Assembly: GCF_024505185.1 (NCBI RefSeq)
Contig: NZ_JANIBJ010000016.1
Span: forward strand, 1-64,000
Direction: 5' to 3'
Source of the DNA: Methylomonas subterranea
Lineage (GTDB): Bacteria; Pseudomonadota; Gammaproteobacteria; Methylococcales; Methylomonadaceae
Length of the DNA stretch: 64,000 nucleotides
In this document: positions 24,843 to 61,972 of the stretch, piece after piece
How the letters are laid out: each line of letters opens with the position of its first letter
Position numbering within the stretch: position 1 is the stretch's first letter
Program-made: the position numbers and the translations under genes
Notes under the pieces: model-generated
Databases searched by the model: none
What the model was told of the DNA's origin: nothing
Seen by the model: only the letters and a program-made list of their open reading frames with translations

Positions 24843-25130
24843 ATGATACAAGCTCACACCAACGAAACACCATCCGTATCTATCAATATCCGTGCTAAAG
24901 CCAAGCAACGAGACCTGATTGATCAAGCCGCGGAACGGCTGGGTCGCAGTCGGTCAGACTTTATGTTGGAAGCCGCCTGTCGAGAAGCAGAAGATGTGCT
25001 GCTTGACCAAGCATTTTTTACCGTCGACGAGGGTACGTTTGCACAATTTCAAACCTTGCTCGATCAACCATTGCCGCCAACGGATAAACTGCGTCGCCTG
25101 CTAAAGACAAAAGCCCCTTGGGATCAATGA
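24843..25130 (+). CDS. DUF1778 ribbon-helix-helix antitoxin (TacA-like)
   Basis: The 95-residue protein has an N-terminal ribbon-helix-helix (SVSINIRAKAKQRDLIDQAAERLGRSRSDFMLEAACREAEDVL) typical of DUF1778 antitoxins. An acidic or hydrophobic C-terminal tail (FTVDEGTFAQFQTLLDQPLPP) would wrap the toxin. It should neutralise the GNAT toxin and repress the operon through the upstream palindrome. Its TGA stop overlaps the toxin ATG (ATGA). Confidence 0.92.
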   Translation: MIQAHTNETPSVSINIRAKAKQRDLIDQAAERLGRSRSDFMLEAACREAEDVLLDQAFFTVDEGTFAQFQTLLDQPLPPTDKLRRLLKTKAPWDQ

Positions 25131-25639
25131 TTCCCTTGTCGCTTTCGAAACCTGAACCCGTTGCCGCAACTCATCAGCTGACGAATTTCGACTGTGGCGA
25201 GCCATCATTAAATGATTGGCTAAAAAAACGGGCACTTAAAAATCACGCATCCGGCGCATCTCGGTGCTTTGTAGTCTGCGCTGATTCGCAAGTGGTTGGC
25301 TACTATTGTTTGTCAACAGGTGCGATCAGTCATGAGCTCGCGCCGAAAGGTATGCGGCGAAATATGCCCAACCCATTGCCTATTTTGGTATTGGGTCGAC
25401 TCGCTGTGGATCAGCGCTATCACAATCAAGGCCTTGGCCAAGCTCTGTTGCGGGACGCCATGCTGAGATCGGTCAATGTATCCGGTGATGCGGGGGTATT
25501 TGCGTTATTAGTGCATGCGTTGTCTGAACCGGCGAAACAATTCTATCTGTCACGTGGTTTTGTTAACTCGCCGCTTCAGCCCATGACATTGCTGATGACG
25601 CTTGAAACCATTCGAGTCATTTTGGCGGAGCCTGAGTGA
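25127..25639 (+). CDS. GNAT-family acetyltransferase toxin (TacT-like)
   Basis: The 170-residue protein has the acetyl-CoA-binding core ILVLGRLAVDQRYHNQGLGQALLRDAM and the C-terminal FYLSRGF with the tyrosine that acts as catalytic residue in this toxin group. TacT-type toxins acetylate the amino group of charged tRNAs and stop translation. The start at 25127 (ATG, overlapping the antitoxin stop) is preferred over TTG at 25118. The pair lies inside the segment bounded by mnmE-end repeats. Confidence 0.92.
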   Translation: MIPLSLSKPEPVAATHQLTNFDCGEPSLNDWLKKRALKNHASGASRCFVVCADSQVVGYYCLSTGAISHELAPKGMRRNMPNPLPILVLGRLAVDQRYHNQGLGQALLRDAMLRSVNVSGDAGVFALLVHALSEPAKQFYLSRGFVNSPLQPMTLLMTLETIRVILAEPE

Positions 25640-26136: not shown

Positions 26137-28011
26137 TCATTGCCCCGTCTTGGCAATACCAAGCTTTTGCATGCGATAACGTAGCGTACTGGGCTTGAGA
26201 TTCAGCCGCCTTGCCGCGCCTTTCGAGCCTTCGATGACCCAGCGGGTTTGCTCGAGAACGCTGAGTATATGCTCCCTGGTTATCGTATCGAGACTGGCAT
26301 CGTTTGTTTGCGGCGAATCCGGGTGGCGAGCATCCGAGCTGCCCGGCAACTGATCGGCCCCTATCTCCAGAACGGCTCCGTCGGCCAGAATGACGGCCCG
26401 CTCTATGACGTTTTCCAGTTCGCGGATATTGCCAGGCCAGCGGTATTGCTGCAGACGCCGCATGGACCCAAGACTGACCGAAGTTATTTTCTTGCCGATT
26501 TTCGGGGCGAATTTGCCAAGCAAAAAATCCACCAACAAGGGGATATCTTCCAGCCGCTCGCGCAAAGGTGGGGTAGTCAACGGAAACACGTTCAAGCGGT
26601 AAAATAAATCTTCGCGAAAGTTTTTTGCCTCAACCTCATGCAACAGATTACGGTTGGTGGCGGTAATGACCCGCACATTCATCTTGATCGACGTTTGGCC
26701 ACCCACACGTTCGAACTCGCGCTCCTGAATAACCCGCAACAATTTCACCTGCATATCCAGCGGAATTTCGCCTATTTCGTCCAGAAACAGCGTGCCGCCT
26801 TCCGCCAGCTCAAAGCGGCCGATGCGTTTATTCACCGCGCCGGTGAATGCGCCTTTTTCGTGGCCGAACAATTCGCTCTCGATTAAATTGGACGGCAGCG
26901 CCGCGCAATTGACTTTGATCAAAGGTTGGTTTTTACGTTTGCTGGCGGAATGGATGGCGCGGGCAATCAATTCCTTGCCCGTACCCGATTCACCTTGGAT
27001 CAATACCGAGGCATCGGTTTGGGCGACGCGTTGCACCTGATTCAATAACGACCGCAAGGCCGGACTGCGGCCAACGATCTCGTCAAAGTTATGCGCCGAC
27101 TTGATTTCTTCCTGCAAATACAGATTTTGCGCTTGCAGCCGGGCTTGCGCCTGTTCCATCAGTACCCGCTCGGTAATGTCGATAAACAGGGTACGCATGA
27201 ATTGGCCGCTGGGATCGGTTTTCGACCACCACTGGATCCAGACAGGCCGACCATTATCCTTGCGGCGCAATTCCAGCACCACGCCGGCACTGTCGGTACC
27301 TTTTTCCACGCAGGCGAATGCCGCTCGCAGCCGGGCCTGGGCGTCGGGGGTATCGGGTACCAGGGAAATACCCCGTATACCGGGCACTTGTTCGGGACTG
27401 ATGCCCAGGATGCGCAGCGCCGCCTGATTGGCCTGCAGAAAACGGCTATCTCTATCCTCGTGTACATAGGCAATCGGCGCTTCGTCGAACAGCTCCCGAT
27501 AACGTTTTTCGCTGAGCCGTAGTTGCGTTTCCATGCGTAATCGGTTCAGTTCCGCGGCGGCCCGGGCGGCAAAAATCTTGAAGGTGTACAGCAAACGGGG
27601 TTGTTCAGGCATCGGTTGTTGGCCGAACAACGCCAGATGGCCGAGAATCTGACCTTCGCTGTCTTGCAAGGGCACGCCCAAATAGCTTTCCACCCCTTCT
27701 TCGTGCGGGAATTTCTTGCTAAGTTCGGATGGGTAATGACATAGATTGCCGCGCAGCACATCCTCGCAGGGTGTGCCGGATAGCTCCCATTCCTGTTGCG
27801 GTAGAAATTCGCCGTCCGCCCAGAAGGCCAGAGACCTTACCCGGGTTTTAGCCTCGGTAAATTCCGCAATAAAGCCGTTAGCAACACCGGTAGCCAGACA
27901 CAGATTGCGCACCAGCGAACGCAGGAAATCGTCCCCAGTGGCCAGCACTGTACCTTCCACCACTGCCTGCAGTATGGATAACTCATTTAAATCCACGGGT
28001 TGTGTTGCCAT
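26137..28011 (-). CDS. Sigma-54-dependent activator with GAF and PAS domains
   Basis: The protein has about 624 residues: GAF (about 20-170), PAS (about 185-305), AAA+ (about 325-555) and a Fis-type helix-turn-helix at the C-terminus. The AAA+ module is complete, with Walker A GESGTGKE, the sigma-54 contact loop GAFTGA and Walker B LFLDEIGE. The start at 28011 follows AAGGTG by 6 bases; an upstream in-frame ATG at 28161 would add an unlikely N-terminus. It is divergent from the bufferin operon, whose promoter has a sigma-54 sequence, so it is probably the operon's regulator. The GAF domain is the likely signal input. Confidence 0.93.
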
Positions 28012-28083
28012 GCCGACACCTTGCCTGGGGTTAAACAACAAAATAAACGCCGCCGGCATTCTAATCCTCCCCACCAAACCAGG

Positions 28084-28124
28084 CCACCAACATTGGCGGT
28101 ATCCACCACTATTGGTGACACCAA
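28084..28124. promoter_or_regulatory. Two short inverted repeats, candidate upstream activator sites
   Basis: CCACCAA-CA-TTGGCGG (28084-28099, one mismatch) and the perfect TTGGTG-A-CACCAA (28112-28124) are spaced 28 bases centre to centre. They lie about 90-120 bases upstream of the -24 element of the bufferin promoter. That is a normal distance for binding of a sigma-54 activator. Confidence 0.6.
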
Positions 28125-28204
28125 AAATGCACGCGTCAAACCGAAACCCATGCATAAACACCTCAACACCATGATTTTAAATGTAATTTTTTTATGACGC
28201 GTAT

Positions 28205-28220
28205 TTGGCACGCGGCTTGC
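28205..28220 (+). promoter_or_regulatory. Sigma-54 (-24/-12) promoter of the bufferin operon
   Basis: TTGGCACGCGGCTTGC matches the RpoN consensus TGGCACG-N4-TTGC at every conserved position. It lies 67 bases upstream of the precursor ATG, on the strand of the operon. Confidence 0.9.
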
Positions 28221-28287
28221 CATATAGGGATGTGTCAGTCGGTGCTTACCGGCGACACTTCTAAATTCTAACTTTTGGAGAACACCC

Positions 28288-28563
28288 ATGAAATCTGCTA
28301 ACCCTGCCGTATCCACCACCTTAGCCACACTGCTTGCATTGAGCGCCTTAGGCGCGCAGAGTCAGGCATTCGCCGCCGACAAGCCTGATCACGAAAAATG
28401 CTACGGCGTCGCCAAAGCCGGTAAAAACGACTGCAAAACCCTGTCCAACGCCTGCGCGGGACATGCCATCATGGACAATCAAAAGGATGCCTTTATCGCC
28501 CTTCCCGCGGGCACCTGCGAGCGTATCGTCGGCGGCAGTCTGGAAATGCCGTCCGGCATGTAG
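28288..28563 (+). CDS. bufA: Bufferin-type RiPP precursor (DUF2282 family)
   Basis: The 91-residue protein has an unusually long signal peptide cut after AFAA (about residue 30). The short mature part contains four cysteines: EKCYGVAKAGKNDC, SNACAG and PAGTCERIVGG. This is the pattern of the DUF2282 bufferin precursors whose core cysteines are turned into thiooxazoles by MNIO enzymes, giving copper-binding periplasmic peptides. GGAG lies 9 bases upstream. The following maturase genes confirm the assignment. Bufferins protect against copper excess in Caulobacter; the role in a methanotroph, which needs copper for methane oxidation, is inferred. Confidence 0.92.
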   Translation: MKSANPAVSTTLATLLALSALGAQSQAFAADKPDHEKCYGVAKAGKNDCKTLSNACAGHAIMDNQKDAFIALPAGTCERIVGGSLEMPSGM

Positions 28564-28575
28564 GCTGAGTCTGTC

Positions 28576-29457
28576 ATGGCGCAGTCGATTCAAGCTCCCC
28601 ACATGCGCGTGGCAACAGCTGCGATTCCGGCCAATGCCGGAATCGGGCTGCGCTCCCGCCATTATCGCGACGTGTTGAATGAGCAGCCCGCAGTGGCTTG
28701 GTTTGAAGTACACAGCGAAAACTATTTCGGTAAAGGTGGAGCACCGTTGAGGTATCTGGAAGCAGTGCGCAACGATTACCCGCTCAGCCTGCATGGCGTA
28801 GGGATGTCGTTGGGCTCGGTTGACGAACTGGACAGCCGGCACCTGCGGCAACTCAAGGAGTTGATAACCCGCATCGAACCGGCGCTGGTGTCGGAGCATT
28901 TAGCCTGGAATAGTTTTGCTGGCCGCTATTTAAACGATCTTGCCCCGATACCCTATACGGACGCGGCATTGACGCATCTAGCGACGCGAATTTCCCGCGT
29001 GCAGGATTTCTTGAGCAGGCAAATTCTGCTGGAGAATCCGTCCAGTTACCTCGAGTACCGCTTTTCCAGCTATGGCGAAGCCGAATTCCTCAACGAACTG
29101 AGCAAACGAAGCGGCTGCGGCATTTTGCTGGACGTGAACAACGTTTACGTGTCCTGCCAAAACCACGGCTGGAATGCTTTGGCCTATCTGCGCGGCATCG
29201 ATGCGGCGCGGGTGGCGGAAATGCATTTGGCTGGACATAGCCGGAACGCTGCCGGCGAACGCGGTATTTTGATCGATACCCACGACCGGCCGGTGTGCGA
29301 GGCGGTGTGGCAACTTTACCAAGCGGCATTGCGTATCATCGGCAAGCGGCCCACGTTGATCGAATGGGACGCGGATTTGCCGAGTTGGCAAGTCCTGGTT
29401 GAGCAAGCGGCACGAGCTGACACTTACATGAGGCAAAATTATGAACAGGCTGCATGA
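28576..29457 (+). CDS. bufB: MNIO-family (DUF692) bufferin maturase
   Basis: The 293-residue protein is a TIM-barrel DUF692/multinuclear non-heme iron oxidase. The His, Glu, Asp and Asn metal-ligand motifs are visible in order: SLHGVGMSLGS, SEHLAWN, LLENPSSY, LLDVNNVYVS, EMHLAGH, DTHDRPV and LIEWD. It should modify cysteines of the upstream precursor with oxygen. It starts 12 bases after the precursor stop and overlaps the next gene by 17 bases. Confidence 0.95.
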   Translation: MAQSIQAPHMRVATAAIPANAGIGLRSRHYRDVLNEQPAVAWFEVHSENYFGKGGAPLRYLEAVRNDYPLSLHGVGMSLGSVDELDSRHLRQLKELITRIEPALVSEHLAWNSFAGRYLNDLAPIPYTDAALTHLATRISRVQDFLSRQILLENPSSYLEYRFSSYGEAEFLNELSKRSGCGILLDVNNVYVSCQNHGWNALAYLRGIDAARVAEMHLAGHSRNAAGERGILIDTHDRPVCEAVWQLYQAALRIIGKRPTLIEWDADLPSWQVLVEQAARADTYMRQNYEQAA

Positions 29458-30211
29458 CACGCAACGGGATTTTGCCCGCTTCGCCTTCCGGGAATCCGAG
29501 GATGTACCGGACGGCATCGTGGCTAATGGCTTGGAACCAGCGCGACGGCTAGCCATTTACCGCCACAACACGCTGTCCGGACTGACGGAAGCCTTGCGGG
29601 ATGTCTACCCGGTCGTCAACCGCCTGGTGGGCGAGGGCTTTTTCCAACGTCTTGCCCGTGCCTACATCGCCAGTCGGCCGCCAAAATCCGCCTGTTTGCT
29701 GGAGTTTGGCGGCGAGTTTGCTGATCTGATCGCCGGATTTACCGACGCGCGCGGCTTGGCGTATTTGCCGGACATTGCCCGGCTGGAATGGTCGTTTCAC
29801 CAGGCTTACCATGCGGAAAATGCCACACCGCTGACGTCTGCTGATTTGGCGCTTATAGCTCCGGCCAACCATGTCCGGCTGGCTTTCAAGCTGCATCCGA
29901 GCGTCCGGCTGTTGGCGTCGAGGTATCCGATAGACCGTATCTGGCTGGTCAATCAGCCCGATGATACAGACAGCGGCTTGATCGATCTCGACCAAGGTGG
30001 CTGCCGGCTGCTGTTGTTCCGCCCGAATCTGGAGGTGAACATACAGCGCTTGAGCGAGGCCGAGTACCTGTGCCTGTCCGCGCTGGCCGCCGGCGACTGT
30101 CTGGTGCAAGCGGTCGAAACAGCCATGGCCAGGCAAGCCGATTTCGCGCCGCAAGCCCTTTTGCGGGACGGTTTATCGAAAGGTTTGCTGAGCGGGTTTT
30201 ACTTTGTTTAA
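29441..30211 (+). CDS. bufC: BufC-type (DUF2063) maturase partner
   Basis: The 256-residue protein has the HvfC/BufC N-terminal domain (FARFAFRESEDV, ARRLAIYRHNTLSGLTEALRDVYPVVNRLVGEGFF) and a less conserved C-terminal part. Partners of this family present the precursor to the MNIO enzyme. It overlaps bufB, so a 1:1 complex is likely. Confidence 0.93.
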   Translation: MNRLHDTQRDFARFAFRESEDVPDGIVANGLEPARRLAIYRHNTLSGLTEALRDVYPVVNRLVGEGFFQRLARAYIASRPPKSACLLEFGGEFADLIAGFTDARGLAYLPDIARLEWSFHQAYHAENATPLTSADLALIAPANHVRLAFKLHPSVRLLASRYPIDRIWLVNQPDDTDSGLIDLDQGGCRLLLFRPNLEVNIQRLSEAEYLCLSALAAGDCLVQAVETAMARQADFAPQALLRDGLSKGLLSGFYFV

Positions 30212-30225
30212 CAGGATCATGCATT

Positions 30226-30705
30226 ATGAACACACTCGGTATCAACGACTATAAACCGGTAAGTCGCAGTCCACTGAATTACCTGACCAAGCTGGCATAC
30301 ATGCTTAATCGCGCAAGCCCGTTCGGCGATTTATTGCTGCGCTGCTGGGTGGCTTATGCCTTCTGGATCTCCGGCTTGCTGAAAGTGCGAAATTGGGACA
30401 GCACTTTGTACTTATTCGAGTACGAATACGCGGTGCCCTTGCTGCCGCCTGAAACGGCGGCGATTCTGGGAACGGCGATCGAACTGTGCGGGCCGGTATT
30501 GCTGGCTTTGGGCTGGCGCGGACGCAGTGCCGCCGCACTGCTGTTTCTGTTTAATATCGTCGCGGTTATTTCATACCCGGAGCTGGGCTCCGCCGGTATC
30601 GAGCAACATAAGGTTTGGGGTGTGATGCTGCTGGTTTGCATACTGCACGGCCCCGGCAAATGCTCGCTCGACGCCTGGCTGAAACCACGGCTTTTTTGCG
30701 GCTGA
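30226..30705 (+). CDS. DoxX-family membrane protein of the bufferin operon
   Basis: The 159-residue protein has four predicted membrane helices (about 32-50, 75-95, 98-118, 125-145). The DoxX core is recognisable (RCWVAYAFWISGLLKVRNWDSTLYLFEYEYAVPLLPPETAAILGTAIELCGPVLLALG). DoxX proteins are the usual fourth gene of bufferin (gig/buf) operons. AGGA lies 9 bases before the ATG. Confidence 0.9.
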   Translation: MNTLGINDYKPVSRSPLNYLTKLAYMLNRASPFGDLLLRCWVAYAFWISGLLKVRNWDSTLYLFEYEYAVPLLPPETAAILGTAIELCGPVLLALGWRGRSAAALLFLFNIVAVISYPELGSAGIEQHKVWGVMLLVCILHGPGKCSLDAWLKPRLFCG

Positions 30706-30719
30706 GCTTGGAGAGCCGC

Positions 30720-31148
30720 GTGCCCGCCGCCGAATTAATTCAGCCCTTGCGGGGCCGCATCGCCCTGGTACTTGCCGCCACCTCGCCGGCGGCTTCCGCC
30801 GCGGCCGAAGCCTTGGCCGAGGCGGGCACCAAAGTCATGCTGAATTATTCGGAGCAGCGGCATCGGGCTGAACAACTGGCCGAGCGTATCCGCAATAAGC
30901 GCGGCCAAGCCATGATATTTCAAGCCGATGTTGCCCAGCCCGACCAGATGACAAGCCTGTGCGACGTGCTGACCGCCTATTGGGGCCGCCTGGATATTCT
31001 GGTGGACGACAGCGGCTTGCATGCCGATGCGGTGCGAACAGCCATGCGGGCGGCACGATCGACTGAATTGATCGTTTTCGATTGCACCGGCCTGTTCCGC
31101 TATTTGGCCGGGCTTTCCCGCCCGGATGGAAGCACCGAGCAACCCTGA
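30720..31148 (+). CDS. Degenerate SDR-like Rossmann protein at the end of the bufferin operon
   Basis: The protein has about 142 residues from GTG 30720 (GGAG 7 bases upstream). The first 110 follow the short-chain dehydrogenase fold (GRIALVLAATSPAASAAAEALAEAG, MIFQADVAQPDQM, YWGRLDILVDDSG). The glycine-rich TGxxxGIG motif is replaced by AATSPAAS, NNAG by VDDSG, and the protein ends before the YxxxK catalytic pair. It cannot be a working SDR enzyme by known rules. It starts 14 bases after the DoxX gene, so it is probably co-transcribed. It is either a decaying gene or a binding protein with a new job. Confidence 0.7.
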   Translation: MPAAELIQPLRGRIALVLAATSPAASAAAEALAEAGTKVMLNYSEQRHRAEQLAERIRNKRGQAMIFQADVAQPDQMTSLCDVLTAYWGRLDILVDDSGLHADAVRTAMRAARSTELIVFDCTGLFRYLAGLSRPDGSTEQP

Positions 31149-31298
31149 ACGGCTTTTCAGGCTCGCCAAGGGCGGCTTCAGCTTACTCAGCGCGCGAGTC
31201 GAGCGAAACTTGATTACGAAAATTTTATCCGCTGTTAACGTACACTGCCGGAAACGGAAATCGCCGGCCCACCCATTTTTATTGCCGAGGAACGCAAC

Positions 31299-32231
31299 AT
31301 GAAACCCTATAAAGCGCCAGCGATACCCGCTTCGGAAATCACCCCCAAGGCCCTGTTTTACGCCCGCCGCAAATTCATGCAAACCGCCGGCGGCGCGGCT
31401 TTGGCGGCCTTATTGCCGCAGACGACCCGGGCCGCCGGCTCGTTCGGCGACTTGAAAAAGTCCACCTACGGCGCGGAGGAGGAATTAACCCCGCTGACAG
31501 CCATCACGGCCTACAACAACTTCTACGAATTCGGCACCGGCAAGGAAGATCCCGCCGCCCGCGCCGGCAGCTTGAAAACCCGGCCCTGGAGCGTGTCGGT
31601 CGAAGGTGAAGTACATAAACCCAAAGTCTTCGATATCGACGACATTTTAAAAATGGCGCCCCTGGAAGAGCGCATATACCGCTTGCGTTGCGTGGAGGCC
31701 TGGTCGATGGTGGTGCCGTGGCTGGGATTTCCGCTGGCGGAACTGCTGAAACGGGTGGAACCCACCGGCAACGCCAAATATGTCGAGTTCGTCAGCCTGC
31801 ACGATCCGGCGCAAATGCCCGGGCAAAAATCCACCGTGCTGGACTGGCCGTACCGGGAAGGCCTGCGCATCGACGAAGCCATGCACCCCCTGACATTATT
31901 GACGTTGGGTCTTTACGGCGACGTGTTGCCCAATCAAAACGGCGCGCCAATCCGGATGGTGATACCTTGGAAATACGGTTTCAAAAGCGCCAAGTCCATC
32001 GTCGGCATCCGTTTGCTGGAACAACAGCCTGTTACCAGCTGGATGCGGACCGGCCCCAACGAATACGGTTTTTACGCCAACGTGAATCCGGAGGTGGATC
32101 ACCCGCGCTGGAGCCAGGCCAAGGAACGCCGTATCGGCGAATTTTTAAAACGCAAAACCCTGATGTTCAATGGCTACGCGGATGAAGTGGCGCCACTGTA
32201 CGCCGGCATGGATTTGAGCAAATACTTCTAG
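31299..32231 (+). CDS. msrP: Protein-methionine-sulfoxide reductase catalytic subunit MsrP
   Basis: The 310-residue molybdopterin enzyme has a Tat signal ([18 protein letters not shown]) and the molybdenum-ligand cysteine in [15 protein letters not shown]. It repairs oxidised methionines in periplasmic proteins, taking electrons from MsrQ, encoded 4 bases downstream. Confidence 0.95.
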
Positions 32232-32235
32232 GCGC

Positions 32236-32856
32236 ATGGCGATTAAAAATCTCGACAACAAAATCGTGGGCCGGATTAAAGCCGGGGTGTTTTTGCTGGC
32301 CTTGATCCCGCTGCTCAAGTTAAGCATCGGCGCATATCTGGGCAAACTGGGCGCCAATCCCATCGAAAAAATCAGCCATGTCACCGGTTACTGGACGCTG
32401 ACTTTTTTGCTAATCACCCTGACCCCAACCCCGCTCAGACGCCTGTCGGGTTGGTCGTGGCCGGTAAGGCTGCGGCGCATGCTGGGTTTGTTCACATTCT
32501 TTTACGGTTGCCTGCATTTTTTAACGTATCTGGTGCTGGATCAGTTTTTCGACTGGGACGGCATTCTGAAGGACATCGTCAAGCGGCCCTATATCACGGT
32601 GGGTTTCCCGGCCTTTTTGTCGATGATCCCGCTAGCCATCACCTCCACCGATAACATGATGCGCCGGCTGGGCGGCAAATACTGGCGCTTGCTGCATACA
32701 CTGGTCTACCCATGCGCCATCGGCGGCGTTGTACATTACTGGTGGCTGGTGAAAAACGACCTCAGCAACCCCATCATCTTTGCGGTGCTGCTGGGCATTT
32801 TACTGGGTACGCGGGTAGTTTACCGTCTGCGGCCAACGGGACAGGGGAAGCAATAA
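32236..32856 (+). CDS. msrQ: Heme-binding membrane subunit MsrQ
   Basis: The 206-residue protein has about six membrane helices of the ferric-reductase-like fold with heme-ligand histidines (FFYGCLHFLTY, WRLLHTLVYPCAIGGVVHYWW). It passes quinone-pool electrons to MsrP. It is tightly linked to msrP. Confidence 0.95.
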   Translation: MAIKNLDNKIVGRIKAGVFLLALIPLLKLSIGAYLGKLGANPIEKISHVTGYWTLTFLLITLTPTPLRRLSGWSWPVRLRRMLGLFTFFYGCLHFLTYLVLDQFFDWDGILKDIVKRPYITVGFPAFLSMIPLAITSTDNMMRRLGGKYWRLLHTLVYPCAIGGVVHYWWLVKNDLSNPIIFAVLLGILLGTRVVYRLRPTGQGKQ

Positions 32857-32889
32857 CCGCGTAATGATAAAAGATGGCCTTGGACTTGT

Positions 32890-34425
32890 TTAAGGCAATG
32901 TATCGCTGATTTTGCTTAAGAACCAACGGCTGGACTGAGCTACTTGCTGCCACAATCGGGTCCATTTCTCATGGCTTTTGGCGTCTTTCAAGCATCTCAA
33001 CAAGCGGGCTCGATTGGCTTCATCCATTTGCCGCCCCATGGCCAACAATAACGAATCTAGGTTATAGGGCCCCAAGCCGTCGTTATCACTCAAACTAACC
33101 GGAACGATTACAGTATTATCAAAGAGCGATAAATCCTGCTGAATGGCGTCCATGGCGGCCCGGATGTTGGCAGCCTTGACGCAATTGGGCTCTATCACAT
33201 CATAGGGCGGCTGCCATTCTCGAACCGGATGCAGTTCGTCGATATGTGTAACCACAACTAACATGGGTGGAATTTTTCGGTTCGGTTGAGCCTTGAAGTG
33301 TTGCTGAAAGCCTTGTAGAAACCGGCGATCAGCCGATCTTGCGGCATTATTGGCATTACAGACCAATAGCACTAAATCGGTTTTATCCAACACTTGACTA
33401 TTGTCGGCCAACCAACTGGTGATTTCGCCATAACCCGGTGTGTCGAAAATTAACCCAGAAAACTGTCCCTCTTTCTCCAGTACATAAGGCATGATGGCAT
33501 CCGTGCACGACACCACGTCCGCCGCCGCGCGTGGTGAATCGAACAAGCTATTGATCAAGCTTGATTTGCCGGCATTGGTTTGTCCGGCCAGCAAAAACCG
33601 TAACGGCTCCCGAATCGATGCTGTCTTTTGAGCCTGTTGACCGTCAGCCTTAGACTTGGCTGACAAGACATCGATTTTTTGTGGCTCTACCGCCACGCGC
33701 CCACTATATAACAGAATCGCATAATGCCCTACTTTCTGGATATACATCTCCAGCAGCCAATCTTGCAGCCGGGGCAGCGTTAAGGCTAATACTTTGCTTT
33801 GGGCATAATTTTTAGCTTCGTATAAACCGCCCGTCAGGGGATTTAATATCAGCCGGCCCAAGCGTAATGCAGTATTGGCAGTACTCAAATGCTCCAGCCA
33901 TCGCTGCAGATTCAAACCGTCGGCCAGGGTCACCACGTGACTCAGAGGCAAATTGCCCTGAATTTGTTCGTGCAAATCATGGCAAACCTGCTCGGCCATG
34001 CGCAACAGCTCGGTAACCGGTATATCCATTTCAGGGTGCTTTGCCTTGGGGCGATAATGCCGAGCCACCAATATCAATACCTGCTGCCCCATCGCCAGCC
34101 AGGTATCGATTTGATCCAGTTTTTGTCGCGTATCCTGGCCAATGATGGGAATCAAAGCCTGCACAGCATCCCAAGCCGCTTGATCGCGTTGCGAAAATGG
34201 CGTGTCGAATTTAATGGCGCTATCGGCCAATGGTCTTTTTTGATATCGATTGAGCTGACGTGCGGCAATCCAGACAATGCCGCTACACAATACCGCCAGA
34301 TTCAGCCATAGCCAAAACCACTGCTGCTGCCACACCCACCAAGCCCCGATCACCGTCAAGGCCAAAAAAGGGATTATCCCGACAAGCAACAGTGTTAGCC
34401 AAGGCCATAACGCATGTTTCATCAT
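32890..34425 (-). CDS. Membrane-anchored Era/YcjX-like GTPase
   Basis: The 511-residue protein has two N-terminal membrane helices (about 10-50), a helical region and a GTPase domain. The G1 motif is FLLAGQTNAGKSSLINSLF, G3 is IFDTPGYGE and G4 is VVVTHIDEL. The substrate process is unknown. Its ATG overlaps the stop of the partner GTPase gene by four bases, so the two GTPases are made together. Confidence 0.85.
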   Translation of the reverse strand: MMKHALWPWLTLLLVGIIPFLALTVIGAWWVWQQQWFWLWLNLAVLCSGIVWIAARQLNRYQKRPLADSAIKFDTPFSQRDQAAWDAVQALIPIIGQDTRQKLDQIDTWLAMGQQVLILVARHYRPKAKHPEMDIPVTELLRMAEQVCHDLHEQIQGNLPLSHVVTLADGLNLQRWLEHLSTANTALRLGRLILNPLTGGLYEAKNYAQSKVLALTLPRLQDWLLEMYIQKVGHYAILLYSGRVAVEPQKIDVLSAKSKADGQQAQKTASIREPLRFLLAGQTNAGKSSLINSLFDSPRAAADVVSCTDAIMPYVLEKEGQFSGLIFDTPGYGEITSWLADNSQVLDKTDLVLLVCNANNAARSADRRFLQGFQQHFKAQPNRKIPPMLVVVTHIDELHPVREWQPPYDVIEPNCVKAANIRAAMDAIQQDLSLFDNTVIVPVSLSDNDGLGPYNLDSLLLAMGRQMDEANRARLLRCLKDAKSHEKWTRLWQQVAQSSRWFLSKISDTLP

Positions 34426-61222: not shown

Positions 61223-61972
61223 TTAGGACGCGTCGTCGGCGATGAAGTCGGTTTTTGCGAACCAACGGCCGAAGAAGTGCCACAAGAAGTAAATGATGAT
61301 AGAAACGAATCCAGAGAAGAACGCTGATACTGGAGCAACGTCTTTACCGAAAGTTCTTAATGTACCTTTCTCTACCATACGGATGTACTCAGGTGTACCA
61401 GTTCTAACGTAGTGGTAACCTTGCAAGTCAGCCAGAGTCATCATCATGCCGTTGTATTCAACGGGCACGTGCAATGGCGCGATTACAGGCCAGTTACCTG
61501 GGTAGAACAACAAGCCATAAGCCAAACCACCAACAACAGCGGTCAGAGTCATGCTGTTACCCAACATCAGGATAACGTCCAGAACGATAGCGCCTGGCAG
61601 CAGGTTGGATGGGAAGCAGATGTTTACTGGGAAGTAAGTCCAGCCCCAGAAGTTCATGTATCTGTTGATCCACTCACCGATCATCAGAGCAACTACAGAC
61701 AGTGTTGCGCCAACTGGCAAACGGTATCTCCACCACAAGCAAGCTTGAACAGCCGCAGGGAATGTAATAGAAACGATAGGTGCCACGGTTACCCACAGAC
61801 GTCTATCTTTCCAGTCGGTCCAGAAGTCCCAGTCACCACCAGTCAACATATAGTGAATGTGATAACCGCCCAGAACCGCTGTGAACAGTGTAAAAAGAAT
61901 CATCCAGTCAAACGTACGGGAAACTTGTACTGCTTCCGCACGAGAACGTACAGCTGATTGAGATGCGCTCAT
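61223..61972 (-). CDS. pmoA: Particulate methane monooxygenase subunit A
   Basis: The 249-residue membrane protein has the primer-site motif GGDWDFWTDWKDRR and the later LHVPVEYNGMMMTLADLQGYHYVRTGTPEYIRMVEKGTLRTFG. These mark a gammaproteobacterial (type Ia) PmoA rather than AmoA or PxmA. TAGGAGGT precedes the ATG by 6 bases. Confidence 0.98.
   Translation of the reverse strand: MSASQSAVRSRAEAVQVSRTFDWMILFTLFTAVLGGYHIHYMLTGGDWDFWTDWKDRRLWVTVAPIVSITFPAAVQACLWWRYRLPVGATLSVVALMIGEWINRYMNFWGWTYFPVNICFPSNLLPGAIVLDVILMLGNSMTLTAVVGGLAYGLLFYPGNWPVIAPLHVPVEYNGMMMTLADLQGYHYVRTGTPEYIRMVEKGTLRTFGKDVAPVSAFFSGFVSIIIYFLWHFFGRWFAKTDFIADDAS

Follow-up and report, generated by a model that had tools for sequence, protein, structure and literature searches.

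A DUF2282-type bufferin operon, bufA-bufB-bufC-doxX, is confirmed at positions 28288-30705 of a 64,000-nucleotide stretch of the methanotroph Methylomonas subterranea (positions 1 to 64,000 of contig NZ_JANIBJ010000016.1; hereafter the window). Bufferins, which are copper-protective ribosomally synthesised and post-translationally modified peptides, form a large class that was recognised recently, and the control demonstrated for them in the literature covered is that exerted in Caulobacter by SigF, a sigma factor of the extracytoplasmic function (ECF) type (articles cited by PMC number are each covered in part, and statements drawn from them are limited to those parts). The operon itself is of an already known kind; the regulator adjoining it, judged at the locus, is a sigma-54 activator and not an ECF sigma factor or NrsF. 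The unit also exceeds that of a preliminary description made from the sequence alone, by a pair of dyads, a short open reading frame (ORF) resembling a short-chain dehydrogenase/reductase (SDR), and msrPQ (31299-32856), as set out in Table 1.

Table 1. Positions and assignments of the features discussed (window coordinates)
Feature	Position	Strand	Assignment and remarks
GAF-PAS-AAA+-Fis sigma-54 activator (enhancer-binding protein)	26137-28011	-	GAF, PAS_4, Sigma54_activat, HTH_8
Probable enhancer dyad 1, CCACCAACATTGGCGG	28084-28099	n/a	
Probable enhancer dyad 2, CCACCACTATTGGTGA	28103-28118	n/a	
RpoN -24/-12 element, TTGGCACGCGGCTTGCC	28205-28221	+	83 bp upstream of the bufA ATG
bufA	28288-28563	+	DUF2282 (Buf1) precursor, 91 amino acids; PF10048, 85.4 bits
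bufB	28576-29457	+	MNIO maturase; PF05114; NCBIfam BufB NF050167, 392.1 bits, cut-off 310
bufC	29441-30211	+	DUF2063 partner protein; PF09836, 82.7 bits, above Pfam cut-off
doxX	30226-30705	+	DoxX-family membrane protein; PF07681, 60.5 bits, above Pfam cut-off
Short SDR-like ORF	30720-31148	+	142 amino acids from GTG 30720; first part of the fold only
msrP	31299-32231	+	Periplasmic methionine sulfoxide reductase, catalytic subunit; NCBIfam 483 bits, cut-off 207
msrQ	32236-32856	+	Heme-binding membrane subunit; NCBIfam 181.5 bits, cut-off 130
pmoA	61241-61951	-	30 kb from the buf operon

The preliminary description had named a precursor with four cysteines, an MNIO maturase, a BufC partner and DoxX, and all four identities are borne out by Pfam matches, the maturase also passing the BufB equivalog model. 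The N-terminus of BufA looks, by eye, like a signal peptide, and its cysteines (C38, C49, C56 and C77) are invariant in an alignment of 20 precursors chosen from the loci described below. The best NCBIfam model for the maturase is BufB (392 bits, the MbnB model scoring 73); its HG, S(E/D)H, EN, DVNN, H(L/I)AGH and DTH blocks are in register with the solved DUF692 protein 3bww, to which it aligns more closely than to MbnB. The bufC and doxX products fall under the NCBIfam equivalog cut-offs of HvfC and HvfX, respectively. Behind doxX, the SDR-like ORF is probably a truncated, decaying member of the unit, judging by its length and by relatives in which the gene is full-length ahead of msrP (L101) or split (L081). 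Terminator prediction gave 11 sites against 6.1 in shuffled sequence, with none placed between this ORF and msrP, and msrPQ may be cotranscribed with the buf operon in the window. Variants of the operon occur elsewhere: two bufA copies lie 1.2 kb apart at locus L071 (7945-9695), with a like-sized gap between bufA and bufB at L075 and L079. The host genome has two further MNIO genes, distant from BufB and without a dyad pair, one (L107, C12:60000-74000) alongside an ORF of 168 amino acids with a signal-like N-terminus and the other (L108, C29:1-12000) close to a DoxX ORF.

The GAF-PAS-AAA+-Fis protein proposed to be encoded divergently is indeed there, with all four domains matched. Its start is taken as the ATG at 28011, which fits the alignment of relatives; an alternative start at 28161 would carry the reading frame through the dyads. 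The translation contains GESGTGKE and GAFTGA, which we take to be functional motifs of a sigma-54 activator. With an AAA+ domain bearing GAFTGA, a Fis-type helix-turn-helix (HTH), a -24/-12 promoter and a repeated dyad upstream of it, the protein is on sequence grounds a predicted sigma-54 enhancer-binding protein. It shares the combination of GAF, AAA+ and Fis-type HTH with activators of the FhlA, NifA and NorR type, but assignment to any of these is rejected, as scores lie below the NCBIfam equivalog cut-offs (362 of 476 bits for NorR, 401 of 830 for FhlA and 411 of 529, precisely 528.85, for NifA), and it differs from them in its putative binding site, CCRCNA-N4-TNGYGG, and in a TPC-x8-CH motif within the GAF domain. 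All 108 aligned rows keep Pro81 and Cys82 of this motif, 93 keep Cys91 and 86 keep His92, some rows representing the same genome twice; the Cys82/Cys91/His92 pattern would fit a thiol or metal sensor. Structure prediction is confident for the GAF domain (block means 86-94, residues 31-130) and poor for the PAS domain. In a fold search of the PDB the matches were to GAF proteins of a generic kind (phosphodiesterases, phytochromes), giving no clue to a ligand. Copper-dependent regulation is a feature of soluble methane monooxygenase (sMMO). MmoR, the enhancer-binding protein of sMMO operons, is likewise a sigma-54 activator of methanotrophs and in some cases has a GAF domain, but its target is mmoX (PMC5874634).

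Promoter, paired dyads and co-inheritance

An RpoN promoter upstream of bufA had been reported as matching the consensus fully. The promoter is present; the full match is rejected, since the element departs from YTGGCACGN4TTGCW at one position, its final W being C (PMC5874634 gives a near-identical consensus). The host genome holds one RpoN match (C22:7949-8419). Comparison of upstream regions side by side brought out a further element, a dyad of consensus CCRCNA-N4-TNGYGG in two copies 19-20 bp apart (19 bp in the window), and 28084-28118 is the only pair scoring at least 18 of 20 within the 64 kb. It is the probable enhancer of the activator. Position 28084 is also where the preliminary description began its unit, without mention of dyads.

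A survey of 201 genomes of the order Methylococcales (bufB at E 1e-60, the activator at E 1e-150) gave 49 bufB matches in 46 genomes, which were divided, after inspection of the data, into 23 loci of a close type (57-100% identity) and 26 of a distant type (46-51%); five of the latter (L193, L198, L204, L205 and L206) are on contigs shorter than 10 kb, where upstream sequence may be missing. The dyad pair occurs at all 23 close-type loci and at none of the 26 distant ones, the motif having been derived from the 23 and the threshold of 18 of 20 chosen with the data in view. It begins 199-220 bp ahead of the bufA anchor (203-208 bp in 21 of the 23), distances being approximate for L087, L090 and L091, where the BLAST match began off the start codon and the anchor was shifted by hand. 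Within 500 bp of bufA, an RpoN-like site of at least 13.5 of 15.5 is found in 22 of the close-type loci (12.5 in L085), with the -24 GG kept in all 23; best scores at the three distant loci covered by this scoring, all with bufA found (L105, L106 and L109), are 11 to 11.5.

The 61 sources covered (924,771 bases) contain 36 pairs, whereas 20 dinucleotide resamplings gave 0.2 on average and never more than 1; 23 are the motif-defining sites, and 12 of the other 13 belong to loci that hold the activator or a paralogue (a second pair in L081, four in L082, three in L100, and one each in L083, L086, L089 and L101). Among the 41 sites of the host genome matching TGGCAYN5TTGC, to which this test was limited, only the buf site has a dyad pair: it scores 19 of 20, against a best of 16 for the other 40 (38 stretches).

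The activator follows the same division. It is present in 27 genomes of the order, namely all 23 with close-type bufB and four of the 178 others (G001, G055, G079 and G099), six candidates per genome being scored; a repeat confined to the genus, scoring as many as 34 candidates per genome, returned the same carriers among the genomes already covered. In 18 of the 23 loci the activator gene adjoins the buf operon, divergently in 17 and in tandem in one (L081), and in all five where it does not (L093, L095, L097, L099 and L103) bufA retains both the dyads and the promoter; at L103 the activator, at 48% identity, is ~10 kb away. A bufB tree of 57 rows, 28 of them labelled (26 for a dyad pair, L144 and L146 for an activator and RpoN site alone), requires 3 label changes against 19.3 in shuffles, a result that does not demonstrate a single origin. 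Among 37 genomes of the genus, 16 have the activator and 15 of those bufB. The sixteenth (G208, locus L252) has the activator, msrPQ and a bufB remnant, with dyad pairs both before the remnant and SDR gene and before msrPQ, and in another genome (G040, locus L254), which lacks activator and bufB, msrPQ is accompanied by what is left of doxX and of the activator. Conservation of the regulator-promoter pair across Methylococcales, which the preliminary description had put forward for checking, is partial: gene and site distributions support the view that the bufferin operon, its predicted RpoN promoter and an enhancer-binding protein of the GAF type are inherited together in part of the order. 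No ECF sigma or NrsF gene was found at distant bufferin loci among the four non-core ORFs scanned against Pfam (L105, L106, L109 and L191).

A putative envelope-protection regulon

The gene set has a counterpart in Caulobacter crescentus, where DUF2282, MNIO (DUF692), DUF2063 and DoxX genes (CC3254-3257 and CC2907-2905) together with msrPQ form a small SigF/NrsF regulon. ECF control there had been noted in the preliminary description, and rightly: SigF governs two bufferin operons, DoxX and MsrPQ (PMC8224329, PMC3511200), although the msrP gene CC2748 is only partly SigF-dependent (PMC3511200). Copper, chromate and cadmium all induce the regulon (PMC3511200, PMC8224329); its genes are listed as responding to copper under every condition tested, although for two entries the test used in one condition was a weaker one, and a sigF mutant is copper-sensitive (PMC8224329). 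In place of the ECF sigma factor and anti-sigma factor of Caulobacter, the Methylomonas unit has RpoN, the dyads and an AAA+ activator of the GAF-PAS type, and its msrPQ lies behind doxX. The gigPABT genes of Cupriavidus metallidurans are four of the same kinds, copper-induced and with a divergent regulator gene, but that regulator, rpoQ, is an ECF sigma factor with an anti-sigma factor, its control of gigPABT being assumed and not demonstrated (PMC10304878). Elsewhere, ECF sigma and NrsF genes occur in some Buf1 clusters without defining them, and the part of that article covered, in which clusters are defined by a list of chosen domains, has no sigma-54 factor (PMC12452194); transcriptional regulators co-occur with bufferin clusters, unnamed in the part covered of PMC13097082; and the parts covered of PMC12538549 and PMC12316311 gave no match for the terms searched. 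No report of RpoN control of bufferins was found in the literature searched, which comprised top-ranked, chiefly freely accessible results and did not include the founding bufferin paper.

The regulon thus looks shared with Caulobacter SigF/NrsF and its regulator different, so that the gene set of the one is in effect under a sigma-54 switch in the Methylomonas lineage. That the same kinds of target (bufferin operon, DoxX and MsrPQ) should fall under an unrelated, ATP-dependent switch makes the composition of the regulon look functional and not accidental. The association with MsrPQ is widespread: msrP and/or msrQ follow doxX within 1 kb on the same strand in 17 of the 23 close-type loci, lie in the stretch but apart from doxX in three (L081, L087 and L103), and are absent from the stretch read in L084, L085 and L095. 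In some relatives msrPQ has a control region of its own. At L252 a further dyad pair and RpoN site (6450) stand directly before msrP (6501); at L101 another pair with an RpoN site (10266), beside a paralogous activator (48%), precedes SDR, msrP and msrQ; and at L081 a pair with an RpoN site (5994, minus strand) is followed by lactonase-fold and DsrE ORFs, msrP and msrQ. No pair is seen at nine other loci of the genus that have msrP but no buf operon in the stretch read (L253, L254 and L256-L262), three of them in genomes with the activator (L258, L259 and L262). In Escherichia coli, MsrPQ is copper-induced via CusSR and is also triggered by reactive chlorine (PMC9302797).

From the genes, the promoter, the dyad pair, its co-inheritance with the activator and its occurrence before msrPQ in some relatives, all of which the sequence supports, we propose an envelope-protection regulon, to which we assign a probability of about 0.66. 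Copper stress, or the oxidative damage accompanying it, would make the GAF-PAS activator competent as an ATPase; bound to the two dyads at 28084-28118, it would remodel the RpoN-RNA polymerase waiting at 28205-28221 and so allow transcription of bufABC-doxX, and probably also of the SDR ORF and msrPQ. BufB with BufC would then turn the cysteines of BufA into copper-binding heterocycles, the exported peptide would tie up periplasmic copper, and MsrPQ would mend oxidised methionine in the same compartment. Copper is favoured as the probable signal because of the target set, whose SigF counterparts are copper-induced in Caulobacter. The dyad pair also offers a sharp, testable candidate for an enhancer code.

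Alternative readings and neighbouring genes

Several observations weigh against this proposal. The count of dyads in the 23 close-type loci is partly circular, the motif having been drawn from them; the -12 GC, kept in 20 of these loci, is changed in L085, L097 and L099; and one stray pair (L085:735-770, 18 of 20) has no known link to activator targets. No pair is seen at L092, L094, L096 and L098, the loci of unlinked activators, nor, at the threshold, at L144 and L146, which lie outside the order and have activator, bufB and RpoN sites. At the Methylocaldum-type loci L082, L083 and L100, dyads stand ahead of lactonase-fold (propeller), YHS/MOSC and STAS genes without close-type bufB, with RpoN sites of at least 13.5 at the YHS and STAS genes and none seen at the lactonase ones; L083 also has a cytochrome P460 gene nearby. 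Finally, members of the activator family occur as far afield as Nitrospira and Planctomycetes, where many adjoin an ECF sigma gene and most have no bufB-like neighbour (L168 being the one exception), so that a signal other than copper is conceivable.

The wider distribution comes from a GAF-PAS alignment search of named genomes, in which 80 loci were kept of 141, partly from the same genomes as the order survey and so not independent of it. A dyad pair is present in 36 of the 80 as counted from the listing, and 15 have a bufB-like gene near the activator, 13 of these with the pair, L118 (a bufB remnant, on the G208 contig) and L168 (51%, ~4 kb off) being left out of the count. One cluster of neighbouring proteins (43 members, from 42 of 90 loci) is represented by an ECF sigma factor, the one protein tested; in several groups the gene after the activator encodes a small STAS-like protein; and L141, from Planctomycetia, combines activator, dyad pair, a member of the ECF cluster and msrPQ. 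Given dyads before non-buf genes and a family that reaches Planctomycetes and Nitrospira, the module of activator, dyads and promoter appears to predate, or to be more mobile than, its association with bufferins. A stronger version, which we consider doubtful, is that the activator represents an undescribed family of sigma-54 activators, found in Methylococcales and other Pseudomonadota as well as in Planctomycetes and Nitrospira, where an ECF sigma gene frequently adjoins it instead. Such a family would sense a metal or oxidant directly through the GAF pocket, with its invariant TPC and the mostly conserved CH nine residues on, and read a paired-dyad code that was in use before its recruitment to bufferins. 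Direct sensing of copper or an oxidant by the GAF domain would make the activator a sigma-54 stress sensor of a new kind and would provide an inducible promoter for methanotroph engineering. In Planctomycetes and Nitrospira (L129-L190) the ECF sigma neighbour is in part accompanied by a zf-HC2 protein, a possible sigma-54-to-ECF cascade.

The same circuit might instead answer to oxidants or electrophiles (hypochlorite, peroxide or reactive carbonyls, for example) sensed through the conserved GAF cysteines, with copper an indirect inducer and the bufferin a general periplasmic thiol or metal shield. We hold this somewhat unlikely, but it is a serious alternative with several points in its favour: msrPQ is a steady co-target, retained with the activator and dyad-bearing promoter in G208 where only a remnant of bufB is left; SDR, DsrE and FMN reductase genes are among other candidate targets; Cys82 is invariant in the aligned relatives, and Cys91 and His92 are kept in most of them, as noted above; reactive chlorine triggers MsrPQ in E. 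coli (PMC9302797); and the Caulobacter sigF mutant is impaired in stationary-phase resistance to oxidative stress (PMC8224329). The SigF-dependent genes themselves, however, are induced by metals and not by generators of reactive oxygen species (PMC8224329), and the bufferin core is a copper system in the literature covered, both of which favour copper in the envelope-protection reading. That the RpoN element is a chance match, the operon being driven from an unseen sigma-70 promoter, is scarcely credible: some RpoN-like sites in the genome must be expected by chance (41, with 8 for the reversed pattern), but dyads accompany bufA in 23 of 23 loci and the RpoN element reaches threshold in 22, and a sigma-70 scan of 28000-33000 returned just two weak sites, both on the minus strand and below the shuffle mean of 3.0.

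A role in supplying or storing copper for particulate methane monooxygenase (pMMO), in place of protection, is also very unlikely. It could draw on pmoA 30 kb away, which the preliminary description had cited as a sign of large copper fluxes, and on the family to which the maturase belongs, since MNIO enzymes, by family name, also make methanobactins. The distance stands, but the link to copper flux is weakened by the genus, where all 31 good genomes carry pmoA-family genes but only 15 of them bufB, and bufB is lacking in 18 of all 33 pmoA-positive genomes; a pMMO-linked role thus finds no support in the presence of the two genes. Moreover BufA is of the DUF2282 (Buf1) kind and sits with msrPQ, and its maturase matches BufB far better than MbnB. 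A second pmoA-family gene lies elsewhere in the host genome (G000:C38:19638-20342). Adjoining the unit on its other side, at 24843-25639 of the window, a TacA1-type antitoxin ORF overlaps a GNAT acetyltransferase ORF, likely a TacAT-like toxin-antitoxin pair.

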